From: CAVPRW01 sp046727435 [NCBI: bacterium]
GTDB lineage: Bacteria; Tectomicrobia; Entotheonellia; J063
Direction: 5' to 3'
DNA length: 6,813 nt
Assembly: GCA_046727435.1 (NCBI GenBank)
Contig: JBKPCR010000472.1
Coordinates: 1-6,813 of the forward strand
Below the pieces are notes generated by a model that had not been told where the DNA came from, made no database searches, and worked only from the letters and a program-made list of their open reading frames with translations. The position numbers were made by a program, and so were the translations under genes. Positions 1,054-6,813 of this stretch are shown one piece after another (positions within the stretch are counted from its first letter, which is position 1; each line of letters opens with the position of its first letter).

Positions 1054-2182
1054 CTACATAGGTGATAAACTAGAATCTGCGCGGCCATCCTGGGATTGGT
1101 TGGGCGAGATGAGTACTGTGCGAGGGGCAGATGTAGAGCTCTCGGGATCTGCAAGGGCGTGGAGGATGGGAGTATCTTGCACCGAAAACAGAATGGCGTC
1201 ATCATCGGTATCATTCGCATGCTCATGCCAAGCCCACGGTGGCACGACGAAGAAGTCGCCGGTCTTCCAGGCAAAGCGCTCGCCGTTAACGATCGTATAA
1301 CCCTCTACCCGGAAAACGTGATAGACGGCGCTATTCGCCTGCCGATGCGCCTTAGCGTGTACGCCTGACCGAATGAGCTGGATCCAACAGGCCATGGTCG
1401 GCAGCACCGGCCCACCGGTATGCGGATTAATATACTCCAATGCCACATCGTCGAAAGGGCTGGCACCAGAGGTGGCCAACTGCCGCAACGCTTCCTCGGT
1501 ACGTTCCCACTTGTAGTTGAGCAGAGGCGACGAGGGACCAGGGGCATGCTTCCAGGTGGGGCGCAATTGCCCAACGCCATAGCGATGCTCCGAGTCATTG
1601 GTTGGTTTTGTTAGGGATTGCTGCTCGCCAGCGGAAAGCTCGAAGAAGTTGGCGTCCATATCGCGCACAAACGGTAGGTCGAGTCCATCCATCCACCAGA
1701 CCGGCTCATCGCTGCCGTTGCCGTGATCGTGCCAGGTCTAAGGCGGGGTGAGAACCAAGTCGCCAGGGCCCATAAAGCACTGATCCCCTTCCACCGCAGT
1801 ATAGGCCCCTTCCCCTGGATGATGAAGTGAATAAGCGAATAGCTGAGGGCGAATGCCGGTGCGCTGGAGCGGTTTCGCCAAGCAGAAGGATCTGCACCCC
1901 GGCTCACAACGTCGATGTAGCCGCCCACTTGCCGCCGAGGCCAGGATTCATGAAGGCGATCACCCAGCGTTCGCCGCCGCGCTCGATGGGGACCTACTTC
2001 GCCGAACGATGTGCCAGGGGTGCGATGTCGGCCCAGCGCCAGAGGTAAGGGATGGCTTGCGGCTGAGGCTTGCGCGGCAGGAGCTGCAGGGCGATTTCCT
2101 AGAGCGGCACGAGATGCTGGCGTTCCAGGTCCTGGTACAGCTCGGGTAATTCGTCCAGAGTGATCTTGGGCGTGCCCGCCAT
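1054..2182 (-). pseudogene. Gentisate 1,2-dioxygenase-like bicupin, decayed
   Basis: The intact family uses Fe(II) and O2 to open the ring of gentisate (or a related hydroxybenzoate) to maleylpyruvate in the cytoplasm. The reading starts at ATG 2182, behind a perfect GGAGGAG. The N-terminal part (ELYQDLERQHLVPL, then PIERGGERWV and NPGLGGK), the first cupin (APAHRH, then FIIQGKG, then TWHDHGN) and the second cupin (SAVYHVFRVEGYTIVNGE, then FFVVPPWAWHEH) can all be followed, for a total near 373 codons, close to the family's usual length. It is broken by TAG 2099-2101, TAG 1994-1996, TGA 1904-1906 and TAG 1738-1740. There is also an apparent 8-nt insertion (about 1827-1834) and a 1-nt deletion (about 1806-1809). 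Three of the four stops replace expected Trp codons. The second cupin has AHRQ where AHRH is usual (Gln at 1339-1341). The C-terminal 212 codons (1692-1054) remain open and could in principle yield a single-cupin fragment. Its substrate within the broad family is uncertain. Confidence 0.85.
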
Positions 2183-2187
2183 CGGAG

Positions 2188-2194
2188 CTCCTCC
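2188..2194 (-). promoter_or_regulatory. Shine-Dalgarno of the cupin pseudogene
   Basis: GGAGGAG lies 5 nt before ATG 2182, a near-ideal ribosome-binding site. It fixes the start of the decayed cupin gene and shows that the translation signal has survived while the coding sequence has not. Its last bases form part of the small palindrome GGAGCTCC. Confidence 0.7.
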
Positions 2195-2203
2195 GTTGAT
2201 AAT

Positions 2204-2278
2204 AGTGCTGAGTGCTGAGGACGGCATAGAGCTCACGCTTTTCACTCAGCACTCAGCACTCATCCCTCAGCACTCGCT
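2204..2278. repeat. Heptamer-built inverted repeat, type ACTCAGC
   Basis: A perfect 16-bp inverted repeat pairs AGTGCTGAGTGCTGAG (2204-2219) with CTCAGCACTCAGCACT (2245-2260) around a 25-nt loop. The right arm belongs to a run of heptamers in phase: ACTCAGC 2244, ACTCAGC 2251, ACTCATC 2258, CCTCAGC 2265, ACTCGCT 2272. The left arm holds two copies of the complementary heptamer. The structure fills the gap between the SBP3 stop and the cupin start. On the minus-strand transcript it would form a strong hairpin, but no U-tract follows, so it is not a classical intrinsic terminator. It could stabilise or end the SBP messages before the dioxygenase gene, or be a selfish small repeat; the sequence does not decide. 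Confidence 0.85.
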
Positions 2279-2280
2279 TT

Positions 2281-3597
2281 TCATCCTTCCGCATACCGCG
2301 CGTAGATCTCCACCACCTTTTTGTGCGCGTCCTCGACAGCCTTCTCGACCTCCCAGTTCTCCACCAGCACCCGGTGCATCATGCGGCCAATTGTGTAGGT
2401 GGCCAGCACCTCACCCGCCGCTGCGTTCATGCTGCCGGGGGAGGCGAACTGGCGCCCCCGCTCCAGCATCACCCGCCAGTGCTGGAATGCGGGCCGCTTC
2501 CAGAAGTCGGACTCATACATGCCCTTGTACGGTGGCCCCCAACGTCCGTCCCCTTCTTCCATCACTACCCGGAGGTTCTCCGGTTCCATCCAGTACTGCG
2601 CCAGCCCTTTGGCCACCTCGGGGTAAGGGTTATGCTTGAAGAGGAGCCATTCCGCGGTGGTAAGCTCCTCAATCGCACCGGCCGGGCCGGCCGGCACGGG
2701 GAGCAGACCGGTCACATCGTACAACTCTTTGTCGGATTCCGCCAGGTGGGCATAGATGCTGGTGGGGTTGAGGACGAAGATCACCTGCCGCGACTGAAAC
2801 GCCTTGTTGTTGCTCTGATTATCCCAGGAGATCGCCCCTTTGGGGATGATCTTGTGCTTATTGAACATATCGGCGATCAGCTGCACGGCCTGCACCGTGC
2901 CCGGCGAGTTGAGGGCGATGGTCTTATCGTCGGCTTCAACGAGCTTCCCGCCGTAGCACCAGATCATATTCATGACGTTGTTATCGGTATCGTTCTGCAG
3001 GCCAAGGCAGATCCCATAGCCGGTCAGCTTGGGAGGCTTTTGCAGCTTTTTGCATACCTCGACGAACTCATCCCAGGTTTTGGGCGGATCGACCTTGGCA
3101 GCTTCAAGGAGATCCATGCGGGTGACCAAGGGCCAGGGGCTCACGGACTGCGGGACGCTGTAGGCTTTCCCCTTATGCATGACGGTCTTTAAGGAGACAT
3201 CGAAGAGACCGCCCGGCACTTGCTGCATCTTCTCGACGACGTCGGTCACGTCCAGTAGGTGGCCCTGGGAGCGATAGAGCGCCGCCAGGCCGCTTCCAGC
3301 CCGGGTGACATCCGGCGGGTTCCCCGCCTCGAGCGCCGCGACCGTCTTTGGTAGGACTTGTCCGCTGCCGAGTTCCACGTATTGGAGCTCGTTTTCCTTG
3401 ATTCCGGCTTGCTTGGCGTAGGCGTAACACTGGTCCTTCAGAAGCTTATCCACCTGCGGCGCCAGGGCGACGGGATTCCACACGATCAATTTCTCGCGGC
3501 GCGCCGCATGGGCCCGGCGCACCAACCACCAGGGCCCGGTCGTCGCCAGTGCTGCCGCCACCCCTGCCTGTTTCAAGATGTCGCGTCGTGTCAGCAT
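2281..3597 (-). CDS. ABC transporter solute-binding protein, copy 3 (SBP3)
   Basis: This is a periplasmic or cell-surface receptor of the extracellular solute-binding family 1 type (sugar or related polar solute), 438 aa. The start is the ATG of MLTRRDILK, chosen because all three paralogs begin there; the frame is open to a GTG at 3648, but that part is permease-derived (see 3616-3652). A Tat signal runs TRRDILK (residues 3-9), a hydrophobic stretch 11-25, then RRAHA with likely cleavage after Ala31; basic residues before the cut are typical Sec-avoidance signs. The mature protein shows LIVW near residue 37, AALEAGNPPDV 87-97, KGKAYSVP 142-149 and PPKTWDE 171-177, standard landmarks of the fold. 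It is about 84% identical to SBP2 and 78% to SBP1, without gaps. The ribosome-binding site is weaker than those of its sisters (AAAGGGATGGG, no AGGAG). It ends in TGA, whereas the permease, SBP1 and SBP2 end in TAG. The ligand is unknown. Confidence 0.92.
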   Translation of the reverse strand: MLTRRDILKQAGVAAALATTGPWWLVRRAHAARREKLIVWNPVALAPQVDKLLKDQCYAYAKQAGIKENELQYVELGSGQVLPKTVAALEAGNPPDVTRAGSGLAALYRSQGHLLDVTDVVEKMQQVPGGLFDVSLKTVMHKGKAYSVPQSVSPWPLVTRMDLLEAAKVDPPKTWDEFVEVCKKLQKPPKLTGYGICLGLQNDTDNNVMNMIWCYGGKLVEADDKTIALNSPGTVQAVQLIADMFNKHKIIPKGAISWDNQSNNKAFQSRQVIFVLNPTSIYAHLAESDKELYDVTGLLPVPAGPAGAIEELTTAEWLLFKHNPYPEVAKGLAQYWMEPENLRVVMEEGDGRWGPPYKGMYESDFWKRPAFQHWRVMLERGRQFASPGSMNAAAGEVLATYTIGRMMHRVLVENWEVEKAVEDAHKKVVEIYARYAEG

Positions 3598-3615
3598 CAC
3601 GGTTTCCCATCCCTT

Positions 3616-3652
3616 TCTTTTAACGGCCCCCAGCCTGGGCCCCTTCACACCC
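3616..3652 (-). pseudogene. Remnant of the permease 3' end ahead of SBP3
   Basis: The DNA just upstream of SBP3 encodes VKGPRLGAVKR in frame with SBP3, against VKGLTLGAVKG at the end of the intact permease (6421 onward). Over the 33 nt starting at GTGAAGGG, 25 bases match by hand count, and the alignment continues without a gap to the start codon: the distance from the permease AAA codon to the ATG is 27 nt in both places. The permease TAG stop is AAG here. Homology upstream of about 3652 is not evident. I infer that SBP3 was copied together with the last dozen or so codons of a permease gene. Confidence 0.72.
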
Positions 3653-3682
3653 GGCGGCGGAGCCGTGCGGTTGGGGGTAAGA

Positions 3683-3758
3683 ACAGGACTGAAGACTGAA
3701 TGCTGAGGACTGAGGAAGAAAAATCTTGCTCTCAGTCCTCATCACTCAGTCCTGTCTT
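3683..3758. repeat. Heptamer-built inverted repeat, type GGACTGA
   Basis: The left side is a run of heptamers: GGACTGA 3686, AGACTGA 3693, ATGCTGA 3700, GGACTGA 3707. The right side carries the complementary phase: CTCAGTC 3731, CTCATCA 3738, CTCAGTC 3745. Pairing gives an 11-bp inner stem (TGAGGACTGAG 3704-3714 with 3731-3741), a 16-nt loop, an asymmetric internal bulge, and a 10-bp outer stem (ACAGGACTGA 3683-3692 with 3746-3755). It begins 2 nt after the SBP2 stop on the transcript and sits between SBP2 and SBP3. There is no U-tract after the stem. It is built like the repeat at 2204-2278 but uses a different heptamer. Confidence 0.83.
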
Positions 3759-3760
3759 CT

Positions 3761-5077
3761 CTATCCCTCTGCATACCGGGCATAGATCTCCACCACCTTT
3801 TTGTGCGCGTCCTCGACGGACTTCTCAGCCTCCCAGTTTTCCACCAGTACCCGGTGCATCATGCGGCTGATCACGTTGGTCACTATCACTTCACCCCCCG
3901 CCGCACTCATGCTACCGGGGGAGGCGAACTGGCGTCCCTGCTCGAGCATCATGCGCCAATGCTGGAACGCCGGTCGCTGCCAGAAGTCAGACGCATACAT
4001 ACCCCTGTACGGCGGCCCCCAGCGCCCGTCCCCTTCTTCCATGACGACCCGGAGATTTTCCGGCTCCATGGAGTACTCCACTAGCCCTTTGGCCACTTCG
4101 GGATAGGGGTTGTGCTTGAAGAGGACCCATTCCCCTGTGCCGAGTGACTGGACCGACCCGGCCGGGCCGGCCGGCACAGGGAGCAGACCGGTCGCATCGT
4201 ACAGCTCTTTGTCCGACTCCGCTAGGTGGGCATAGATGCTGGTGGGGTTGAGGACGAAGATCACCTGCCGCGACTGATAGGCCTTATTATTCCCCTGATT
4301 ATCCCAGGAGATCGTCCCCTTGGGGATGATCTTATGCTTATTGAACATGTCCGCGATCAGCTGCACGGCCTGGACCGTGCCCGGCGAGTTAAGGGCGACG
4401 GTCTTATCGTCGGCCTCCACCAGTTTCCCGCCGTAGCTCCAGATCACATTCATCACGTCGTTATCGGCATCCGTGGTTAGGCCGAGGCAGATGCCAAAGC
4501 CGGTGAGCTTGGGAGGCTTCTGTAGCTTCTTGGACACCTCGATGAGCTCGTCCCAGGTCTTGGGGGGATCGACCTTGGCGGCCTCGATGAGATCGAGGCG
4601 GGTGACCAGGGGCCGGGGGCTCACCTGGTATGGGACGCCGTAGGCCTTCCCCTTATGCATGGCGGCCTCGAGGCAGATCGGAAAAAGACCCCCCGGCACT
4701 TGCTGCATCTTCTCGACGATGTCGGTCACCTCCAGGAGGTGTCCCTGGGCGCGATAGAGAGACGCCTGGCTGCTCCCGGCCCGGGCGACATCCGGCGGGT
4801 TCCCCGCCTCCAGCGCCGCGACCATCTTTGGTGCCTGTTGTCCGGTGCCGAGCTCCACGTATTGGATCTCGTTTTCCTTGATCCCGGCTTGCTTGGCGTA
4901 GGCGTAACATTGGTCCTTGAGGATCTTATCCACCTGCGGGGCCAGGGCGATCGAACTCCACACGATCAATTTCTCACGGCGCGCCGCGTGCGCTCGGCGC
5001 ACCAACCACCAGGGTGCGGTCGTCGCCAGCGCTGCCACCATCCCGGCTTGTTTCAGAACACCGCGTCGTGTCAGCAT
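3761..5077 (-). CDS. ABC transporter solute-binding protein, copy 2 (SBP2)
   Basis: This is the middle member of the array, 438 aa, starting at the ATG of MLTRRGVLK. The frame is open upstream to 5287, but that part only shadows the 3' end of SBP1 and is discarded. Tat signal: TRRGVLK, with Gly where the sisters have the commoner Asp, then a hydrophobic stretch and RRAHA with cleavage after Ala31. The fold and role are as for SBP3: extracytoplasmic capture of a solute and delivery to the permease. Its private differences lie at residues 101-106 (GSSQAS), 132-139 (FPICLEAA), 147-155 (GVPYQVSPR), 201-207 and 308-318. In several of these both sisters agree with each other against it (for example SVPQ versus GVPY at 147-150), which points to an altered binding site. 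Translation is probably coupled to SBP1, whose stop is 11 nt upstream. It ends in TAG. Confidence 0.93.
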   Translation of the reverse strand: MLTRRGVLKQAGMVAALATTAPWWLVRRAHAARREKLIVWSSIALAPQVDKILKDQCYAYAKQAGIKENEIQYVELGTGQQAPKMVAALEAGNPPDVARAGSSQASLYRAQGHLLEVTDIVEKMQQVPGGLFPICLEAAMHKGKAYGVPYQVSPRPLVTRLDLIEAAKVDPPKTWDELIEVSKKLQKPPKLTGFGICLGLTTDADNDVMNVIWSYGGKLVEADDKTVALNSPGTVQAVQLIADMFNKHKIIPKGTISWDNQGNNKAYQSRQVIFVLNPTSIYAHLAESDKELYDATGLLPVPAGPAGSVQSLGTGEWVLFKHNPYPEVAKGLVEYSMEPENLRVVMEEGDGRWGPPYRGMYASDFWQRPAFQHWRMMLEQGRQFASPGSMSAAGGEVIVTNVISRMMHRVLVENWEAEKSVEDAHKKVVEIYARYAEG

Positions 5078-5083
5078 AGCCGT

Positions 5084-5090
5084 CTCCTCT
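5084..5090 (-). promoter_or_regulatory. Shine-Dalgarno of SBP2 overlapping the SBP1 stop
   Basis: AGAGGAG lies 6 nt before ATG 5077, and its first two bases are the last two of the SBP1 TAG (5089-5091). The same AGAGGAG at the same 6-nt spacing precedes SBP1, which supports the chosen starts and suggests that ribosomes terminating on SBP1 can restart on SBP2. Confidence 0.75.
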
Positions 5091-6405
5091 ACCCCTCCGG
5101 ATAGCGCGCGTAGATCTCCACCACCTTGTTGTGCGCCTCCTCGACGGCCTTCTCCGCCTCCCAGTTTTCCACCACCACGCGGTGCATCATGCGGGCCAGC
5201 ACCGTGGTAACCCACACCTCGCTCGCTGCGGCCGTCAGGCTGCCAGGCGAGGCGAACCCGCGCCCTCGGTCCAGCATCAGACGCCAATAGTGGAACCCGG
5301 GCTTCTCCCAGAAGGGCGTGTTATACATGCCTTTGTATGGCGGACCCCAGCGCCCGCCACCTTCTTCCATCACGACTCGCAGGTTCTCCGGCTCCATGGA
5401 GTACTGGACAAACCCTTTGGCCACCTCGGGGTAGGGGTTGTGCTTGAAGAGCCACCACTCCGCCGTGCCGACCCGATCGTATTGCCCTGCCGGGCCGCCC
5501 GGCGCTGGGAGCATCCCGGTCACATCATAGAGCTCTTTGTCCGACTCCGCCAAGTGGGCATAGATGCTGCTGGCGTTCATGACGAAGATCACCTGCCGCG
5601 ACTGGTAGGCCTTGTTGTTTCCTTGATTATCCCAGGAGATCGACCCTTTGGGGATGATCTTGTGCTTGAGGTACATGTCGGCGATTAGCTTCACCGCCTG
5701 GACCGTGCCCGGCGAGTTGAGGGCCACGGTCTTATCGTCGGCTTCCACGAGTTTCCCGCCGTAGGGCCAGACCACATCCATCACATTGCCTTCGGTATCC
5801 GTGTGAAGTCCCAGGCACATGCCAAACCCCAAAAGCTTGGGAGGCTTCTGCAGCCTTTTAGACACCTCGATGAGCTCGTCCCAGGTCTTGGGGGGATCGA
5901 CCTTGGCGGCCTCCAAGATATCTAGGCGCGTGACCAGAGGCGAGGGGCTGATGGACTGCGGGACGCTGTAGGCTTTCCCCTTATACATGACGGCATTGAG
6001 AGAGGCGTCGAAGAGACCGCCTGGCACTTTCTGCATCTTCTCGACGACATCGGTCACCTCGATCAGGTGTCCCTGGGCGCGATAGAGAGCCCCCTGGCCC
6101 TGGCCGCCCCGGCAGACATCTGGCGGGTTCCCCGCCTCCAGCGATGCTACCAGCTTCGGGATCAATTGTCCGGTGCCGATTTCCACATATTGGAGCTCGT
6201 TCTCCTTGATCCCGGCTTGCTTGGCGTAGGCGTAGCACTGCTCTTTGAGGAGTTTATCTACCTGCGGCGCCAGGGCGACGGGGCTCCAGACGATCAATTT
6301 CTCGCGGCGCGCCGCGTGGGCCCGACGTACGAACCACCAGGGGGCGGTGGTCGCCAGCGCCGCCACCGCCCCGGCCTGTTTCAAGACGTCACGTCGTGTC
6401 GGCAT
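5089..6405 (-). CDS. ABC transporter solute-binding protein, copy 1 (SBP1)
   Basis: This is the permease-proximal and most divergent receptor of the array, 438 aa from the second ATG (MPTRRDVLK). An ATG two codons earlier (6411) abuts AGAGGAG with no spacing, whereas 6405 has the 6-nt spacing seen for SBP2, so 6405 is preferred. Tat signal: TRRDVLK, the hydrophobic AGAVAALATTAPWWF, then RRAHA with cleavage after Ala31. The body has the family-1 binding-protein landmarks LIVW, ASLEAGNPPDV, KGKAYSVP and PPKTWDELIEVSKRL. It is about 78% identical to both SBP2 and SBP3 by hand count, with no gaps, so it split off before the other two separated. Private positions cluster at 98-105 (CRGGQGQG), 201-214, 307-318 and 361-373, the same patches that vary in the sisters. 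It starts 15 nt after the permease stop, so the two are surely cotranscribed. It ends in TAG. The ligand is not deducible; a sugar, polyol or sugar-phosphate is the family's usual range. Confidence 0.93.
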   Translation of the reverse strand: MPTRRDVLKQAGAVAALATTAPWWFVRRAHAARREKLIVWSPVALAPQVDKLLKEQCYAYAKQAGIKENELQYVEIGTGQLIPKLVASLEAGNPPDVCRGGQGQGALYRAQGHLIEVTDVVEKMQKVPGGLFDASLNAVMYKGKAYSVPQSISPSPLVTRLDILEAAKVDPPKTWDELIEVSKRLQKPPKLLGFGMCLGLHTDTEGNVMDVVWPYGGKLVEADDKTVALNSPGTVQAVKLIADMYLKHKIIPKGSISWDNQGNNKAYQSRQVIFVMNASSIYAHLAESDKELYDVTGMLPAPGGPAGQYDRVGTAEWWLFKHNPYPEVAKGFVQYSMEPENLRVVMEEGGGRWGPPYKGMYNTPFWEKPGFHYWRLMLDRGRGFASPGSLTAAASEVWVTTVLARMMHRVVVENWEAEKAVEEAHNKVVEIYARYPEG

Positions 6406-6411
6406 ACCCAT

Positions 6412-6418
6412 CTCCTCT
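6412..6418 (-). promoter_or_regulatory. Shine-Dalgarno of SBP1
   Basis: AGAGGAG stands 6 nt before ATG 6405 and directly touches the alternative ATG at 6411. The spacing decides the start in favour of 6405. It lies in the 15-nt gap after the permease stop. Confidence 0.7.
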
Positions 6419-6420
6419 CG

Positions 6421-6813
6421 CTATCCTTTGACCGCCCCCAACGTCAGTCCCTTCACCACCCAACGCTGGAGGAGGAGAAACATGATGACCGGGGGCAGGG
6501 CGCTAAGGATCGTCGAGGCCATCAACGGCCCCCAGTAGAACACGTCCGCACTCATGAAGTTGACCAGCCCCGTGGTGATCGTTTTGGCCTGATTGGTGCT
6601 GGTGAACACGTAGGCATACAGAAACTCGTTCCATGCACGGGTGAACGCGAAGAACGTCACCACCACAATGGCCGGCATTGCGACGGGCAGGACCACCCGG
6701 ATGAGCGCTGTGATACGATTACAGCCGTCCACCAGCGCGGCTTCTTCGAGCTCGACCGGCACCGACCTGAAATACCCCATGAGCAGCCAGGTGGCAAACG
6801 GCACATCGGCGCC
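6421..6813 (-). CDS. Carbohydrate-type ABC transporter permease, MalG-like, C-terminal part
   Basis: This is the inner-membrane channel subunit of a binding-protein-dependent importer, in the MalG/UgpE group. Only the last 130 codons are in the window; the gene runs off the right edge (family members are usually about 270-300 aa). The cytoplasmic EAA loop that docks the ATPase is present at residues 24-43 of this fragment: EEAALVDG, then the conserved LP of VVLP. It is followed by a membrane segment (about 46-63), the WNEF motif typical of this group (61-64), the periplasmic TITTGLVNFMS region, a last membrane segment (about 97-116), and the family-typical end VKGLTLGAVKG. It is transcribed ahead of SBP1, the reverse of the common receptor-first order. 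The partner permease and ATPase would be expected further right. Its 3' end is the source of the copy at 3616-3652. Confidence 0.93.
   Translation of the reverse strand, partial: GADVPFATWLLMGYFRSVPVELEEAALVDGCNRITALIRVVLPVAMPAIVVVTFFAFTRAWNEFLYAYVFTSTNQAKTITTGLVNFMSADVFYWGPLMASTILSALPPVIMFLLLQRWVVKGLTLGAVKG

Follow-up and report, generated by a model that had tools for sequence, protein, structure and literature searches.

Three tandem receptor genes behind one permease in a Tectomicrobia bacterium: a probable multi-receptor sugar-type ABC importer

Several paralogous receptor genes are linked to one permease in a stretch of 6,813 nucleotides from an Entotheonellia bacterium (Tectomicrobia), the whole of which we refer to as the window. 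We consider it probable that these genes belong to a multi-receptor sugar-type ABC importer that arose when its substrate-binding protein was duplicated in tandem, twice. Read 5' to 3' along its minus strand, on which the features listed next lie, the window carries the end of a permease gene, three receptor genes (C3, C2 and C1), a broken gentisate 1,2-dioxygenase gene and two IS6-family fragments. The permease gene (6421-6813) is truncated by the window edge, and its C-terminal part of 130 amino acids is MalG-like, with the BPD_transp_1 domain of sugar-type ABC importers. C3 (5089-6405) adjoins the permease, C2 (3761-5077) is in the middle and C1 (2281-3597) is distal, each with 438 codons. 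The C3 reading frame is open from 6411, which gives a protein of 440 amino acids from the first ATG (6411) or 438 from the second (6405); a Shine-Dalgarno match lies 5 nt upstream of the second ATG, compared with 0 nt for the first. C1, C2 and C3 are all preceded by a ribosome-binding-site match (-7.3 to -8.4 kcal/mol, 5-8 nt from the start). The spacer between the permease stop codon and C3 is 9 or 15 nt, that between C3 and C2 is 11 nt, and that between C2 and C1 is 163 nt. At the protein level C1 and C2 are 84% identical, C1 and C3 78%, and C2 and C3 79%, in an alignment without internal gaps. The coordinates and identities reported in the sequence-only reading were thus correct, and its three frames are indeed complete and gapless. 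A single permease end is visible within the window, which ends inside that one gene, and neither a partner permease nor an ATPase was seen within these limits. Apart from a relic of about 70 nt described below, the copies have no second permease between them, and the locus is therefore most simply read as one channel with several receptors.

Each of the three proteins matches the families SBP_bac_1 (PF01547) and SBP_bac_8 (PF13416), with E values of 2e-33 to 2e-32 and profile scores of 113-117 bits against curated cut-offs of 26-27. The structure model of C1, the sole copy modelled, has a mean pLDDT of 92.4 and the two-lobed fold of sugar receptors. It superimposes on a Thermotoga lettingae substrate-binding protein (5ci5) with Z 46.3 and an rmsd of 1.9 over 385 residues, and on Thermotoga MalE3 (6dtq) with Z 45.5 and an rmsd of 2.3 over 381 residues; the folds are alike, yet sequence identity is 20-21%. 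The top-ranked structural matches (Foldseek, VIA-align) are mostly sugar receptors, and since these bind many ligands they do not name the ligand of C1. A TAT signal model with a cut-off of 16.7 scored 22.4 for C1 and 21.0 for C3, and C2 was not among the matches listed. All three copies are probably exported, folded, two-lobed receptors. In each of them serine 280 stands in place of a sugar-contact tryptophan, W290 in TdCIBP and the aligned W230 in maltose-binding protein (MBP), the latter of which we take to contact sugar as well. This replacement suggests that a long, aromatic-stacked oligosaccharide is not an obvious ligand; the contact of W290 with sugar is described in the part of PMC13084667 drawn on here. 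The genes near the orthologs in other genomes (20 proteins at six loci) encode PhzF, aminotransferase, Ldh_2, HpcH aldolase and SDR proteins, and they are too variable to name the ligand.

The premise that importer operons normally carry one binding protein holds in the relatives that we examined. We searched the genome contigs of 84,980 species with a profile whose query alignment had been broadened with four plasmid-borne homologues; 503 stretches matched, 492 of them encode a relative, and the best 80 loci were kept. A profile search of genome contigs that used the three copies alone confirmed no relative, as did three viral scans; Megablast against E. coli genomes gave no match, and a phage search returned only two weak matches to Listeria phage records. 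None of the 80 loci (the best of the 492 relatives) has an immediately adjacent second receptor, and the same three-gene array was found in none of them; the receptor is flanked by at least 1.5 kb on each side in 69 of them and on a single side in the other 11. A second receptor-like place is present somewhere in the flanks of eight of the 80 loci, never adjacent, and the nearest is 2.6 kb away, at L041, slightly more than the distance limit applied to the flanks, with a 302-codon open reading frame in between.

By identity, the seven closest loci come from six Candidatus Rokuibacteriota metagenome-assembled genomes (L006-L011) and from one labelled Proteobacteria (L012). Identity to C1 is 78-82% for the receptors of L006-L011, two of which were matched incompletely or as separate pieces; the same six share 73-74% with C2 and 69-70% with C3, and for L012 the figures are 70% (C1), 68% (C2) and 66% (C3). 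The L010 receptor changes frame after about 55 residues. These six orthologous loci have one receptor each, against three in the window, and five of them share the permease-receptor junction of the window; the contig of the sixth, L011, begins inside the receptor gene. Across the wider set L006-L033, a single receptor follows the permease in 26 of 28 loci, the others being L011 and L024, whose contig likewise begins inside the gene; four of the 28 carry a second receptor-like gene farther off. In the phylum of G001, which is the genome of L006 and the first of the six genomes of L006-L011 (G001-G006), 15 of 95 genomes match C3 at E<=1e-60, with at most 18 candidates per genome scored. Two of the 15 hold two matches, which lie on separate contigs in one genome and are two pieces of a decayed copy in the other. 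At L102 (G058), a lone receptor gene of the family (about 970-2036) is decayed and has an internal deletion. The three-copy array is thus special to the lineage of the window as far as sampled. The closest relative differs by gene: the permease fragment is 84% identical to that of G007, the genome of L012, and 78-81% identical to those of five of G001-G006, while C1 is closest to the Rokuibacteriota orthologs. At E<=1e-20 the permease fragment has 7-20 matches in every one of G001-G006 and one in G007. The Rokuibacteriota relatives thus seem, from their sequences, to multiply transporters otherwise, which would make an expansion of the receptor alone mildly unusual.

The three copies are related by descent within the window's own lineage. 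In a maximum-likelihood tree of 19 receptors (C1-C3 and 16 others, with L010 and L011 included as fragments), C1, C2 and C3 form one clade (support 100/99) in which C2 and C3 are sisters (100/98); the array was therefore made by two duplications in this lineage. Branch lengths are 0.031 for C1, 0.062 for the stem of C2 and C3, 0.098 for C2 and 0.18 for C3, the longest of the three copies. The DNA between the genes preserves a trace of the first duplication. The 70 nt directly upstream of C1 (3598-3667) align over their whole length with an equally long stretch in front of C3, which includes the last codons of the permease, so that this segment is a relic of a permease 3' end and leader. The anchored alignment scores 62, whereas all 2000 shuffles and the 2584 other 70-mers in the window score lower. 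When the full spacer was instead compared locally, without an anchor, with the entire permease fragment, the score of 48 barely exceeded the highest of 500 shuffles (47), and it is the placement of the match at the start of C1 that makes it convincing. We infer from the relic that C1 once lay directly behind a permease end, and that the first duplication took that end along. The 14-nt leader of C2 is the same as that of C3 at 11 of 14 positions, as expected if a second, tighter duplication split C2 and C3.

These events are old. Pairwise dS among the copies is 0.49-0.57, with omega (dN/dS) of 0.19-0.24. The four close orthologs of full length differ from one another by a dS of 0.22-0.42 and from C1 by 0.93-1.09. 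Since the copies, at a dS of about 0.5, are farther apart than any pair of the four closest full-length orthologs, the array is no recent amplification. Along the gene, the synonymous difference between C1 (2281-3597) and C2 (3761-5077) varies from 0.19 to 0.58, and patchy gene conversion might be the cause. In the order of steps that we propose, the ancestor would have had the arrangement permease-permease-receptor that its relatives still keep. The receptor and the tail of the upstream permease would then have been copied together, with C1 as one product and the relic before it as the scar, and the other product would have been duplicated again to give C3 and C2 behind the permease.

We next consider whether all three copies are maintained. 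We fitted a codon model to eight receptors, using custom scripts rather than a standard package, and estimated omega at 0.059 for the background, 0.066 for C1, 0.152 for C2, 0.140 for C3, 0.167 for the stem of C2 and C3, and 0.078 for the stem that the three copies share. Neutrality (omega = 1) is rejected on each terminal branch (2dlnL 7.2 for C1, 19.6 for C2 and 69.1 for C3), and it cannot be rejected on the short stem of C2 and C3 (2dlnL 2.0). Purifying selection acts on all three copies. The sequence-only reading had supposed as much from the contrast between three undamaged receptor genes and decayed neighbours, and both halves of that contrast stand: no copy has a dN/dS near 1, and beyond the array the dioxygenase gene is broken and the IS6-family transposase survives as two fragments. 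Pseudogenisation of any copy was considered and is ruled out by the intact frames and the omega values. A model with two classes gives an omega of 0.147 for C2, C3 and their stem and 0.062 for the remainder, about 2.4-fold apart, and improves on a single omega by a 2dlnL of 26.3. C1, whose omega resembles that of single-copy orthologs, is the conservative copy, and the higher omega of C2 and C3 may be merely relaxed constraint. Branch-site tests for positive selection on C1, C2, C3 and C2+C3 with their stem were significant in none of four cases (p 0.22, 0.18, 0.22 and 1.0), and we accordingly dropped positive selection as a demonstrated fact.

How, then, might the three receptors divide their work? 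Most likely a single permease pair would receive C1, C2 and C3 alike. The ancestral ligand has probably stayed with C1, and C2 and C3 may have shifted in ligand range or affinity; a difference in ligand among the copies is a reasonable reading. At 60 positions of the mature proteins, C1 has the state common to four orthologs and C2 or C3 has changed, and at 22 positions all three copies differ. We asked whether these changes fall on ligand contacts, using MBP and TdCIBP as templates, which are only about 16-19% identical to the window receptors. The contact positions of both were placed by hand from alignments, a profile alignment in the case of MBP. Ten of the 18 MBP contact positions are residues that we take to be sugar contacts. 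The other eight come from the part of PMC3080849 drawn on here, where the named MBP contact residues include Glu45, Arg367 and Asp363. The 18 MBP contacts (of 403 positions) hold seven of the 60 derived changes (odds ratio 4.0, p 0.0096, circular-shift p 0.020), with p values here and below uncorrected across many tests. As a control, positions that vary among the orthologs show no excess on the MBP contacts (2 of 50, odds ratio 0.88). Three of the 22 three-way positions fall on MBP contacts, which is not significant (p 0.068). Of nine residues from that source (the eight and Glu45), four are derived by hand count (p 0.031); adding Arg367 and Asp363, neither of which was counted as derived, gives four of 11 (p 0.065).

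The second template does not repeat this pattern. The 13 TdCIBP contacts (of 403 positions), from the part of PMC13084667 used here, hold one of the 60 derived changes, no excess. Six of the 13 (Thr61, Ser63, Asp64, Glu66, Arg91 and Tyr94) precede the aligned stretch and were positioned by extrapolating its offset; Arg389 and Asp403 follow it and were omitted. The two sets pooled hold eight of the 60 derived changes in 27 positions (odds ratio 2.6, p 0.033). We therefore rejected a clean claim of a changed pocket, as MBP supports it and TdCIBP does not; the enrichment is suggestive of ligand differences among the copies. Of the earlier proposal, that one transport channel is served by receptors with different ligands or affinities, the first part stands as the simplest reading, whereas the second has the MBP contacts in its favour and the TdCIBP contacts and the four branch-site tests against it. 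A more specific form of the proposal, which we think less likely than not, is a neofunctionalisation series on a fixed channel, with the ancestral specificity in C1 and a different new ligand in each of C2 and C3.

Alternatively, all three receptors could bind the same ligand, with the array raising receptor abundance or permitting different expression and with constraint relaxed on C2 and C3. We regard such dosage or regulatory redundancy as rather unlikely, and the evidence bears on it in both directions. The non-significant branch-site tests are in its favour, and the contact positions mapped from TdCIBP are largely conserved; with no enrichment there, the centre of the binding pocket may have stayed as it was, which could leave the copies redundant in part. 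The locus also has structures that could set mRNA levels. A strong hairpin built of 7-nt repeats lies in the 163-nt gap that sets C1 apart from C2 (3660-3763; -44.2 kcal/mol, z -6.7), and a second lies just 3' of C1 (2190-2286; -39.6 kcal/mol, z -4.0). The repeats are related units of the type ACTCAGC / CTCAGTC, and neither of two exact patterns written for them occurs in 106 related loci. Terminator-like sites were sought in 2150-3800 by a consensus scan, which gave none on the minus strand and one on the plus strand, and scans of the window with Rfam (at gathering scores) and for tRNAs gave no match. The hairpins after C2 and C1 may separate the expression of C1 from that of C2 and C3. However, retention at a dS of about 0.5, with an omega well below 1 for each copy, is long for pure redundancy, and there are positions (98, 155, 201, 308, 310, 311, 318, 398 and 404 among others) at which C1 agrees with the four orthologs while C2 and C3 depart from it and from one another.

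The boundary of the array is the gentisate 1,2-dioxygenase gene (1054-2203), which is outside the importer and broken: intact homologues align to it in two different frames. Unbroken homologues (best 64%) are present in the phylum of G001, where 29 of 95 genomes match at E<=1e-30. The IS6-family transposase fragments that follow lie at 240-455 and 625-822.

Two further explanations fare worse. C2 or C3 could be decoupled from the permease and act as a sensor, as a scavenging receptor or with another permease, and the abundance of paralogous permeases in six of the related genomes means that other partners may exist; we think this improbable, as the short spacers from the permease to C3 and from C3 to C2 favour co-expression with the permease, and no sensor was found among the eight window proteins searched. 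That metagenome assembly joined copies from different strains into a chimera is very improbable indeed, because the copies are 16-22% apart at the protein level and form one clade separate from 16 other receptors, their junctions differ and one carries the permease-tail relic, and GC3 is uniform (0.80-0.81 in the receptors, 0.82 in the permease).

An importer with several receptors is already an established kind. The nearest likeness is the chromosomal opp locus of Borrelia burgdorferi, which, in the part of PMC5736914 drawn on here, has three tandem receptors, OppA1-OppA3, attributed to serial gene duplication; relapsing-fever Borrelia are described there as having only two OppA receptors at this locus. 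Like the window, the locus of B. burgdorferi has three tandem receptors at one importer. Unlike it, Opp is a peptide importer with two heterodimeric permeases and two further plasmid-encoded receptors, and the oppA genes, each with a promoter of its own reported in the same portion of that source, have been studied by experiment, whereas the window is known from sequence. According to the relevant part of PMC10846223, HisJ and ArgT of Salmonella overlap in specificity and both use the HisQMP permease, which would resemble our array in the shared permease but is an amino acid importer with two receptors rather than three. The same extract describes the Pseudomonas receptors CbcX, CaiX and BetX, with distinct ligands (choline, carnitine and betaine, respectively), all of which use the CbcWV permease. 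A narrow search of the open-access literature did not find a description of the array reported here, which is a further example of the kind, in a different receptor family and lineage.

If the neofunctionalisation series is true, a soil bacterium would have widened its uptake while adding no permease, although its lineage seems in other cases to multiply complete transporters. With single-copy orthologs in relatives and three selected copies on what is probably one channel, the locus lends itself to a compact test: we know the ancestral state, the sequence reveals in which order the duplications occurred, and the copies are told apart by a limited number of positions. It would otherwise be one more multi-receptor importer, and it could show whether receptor duplication alone widens the diet of an uncultured soil lineage.
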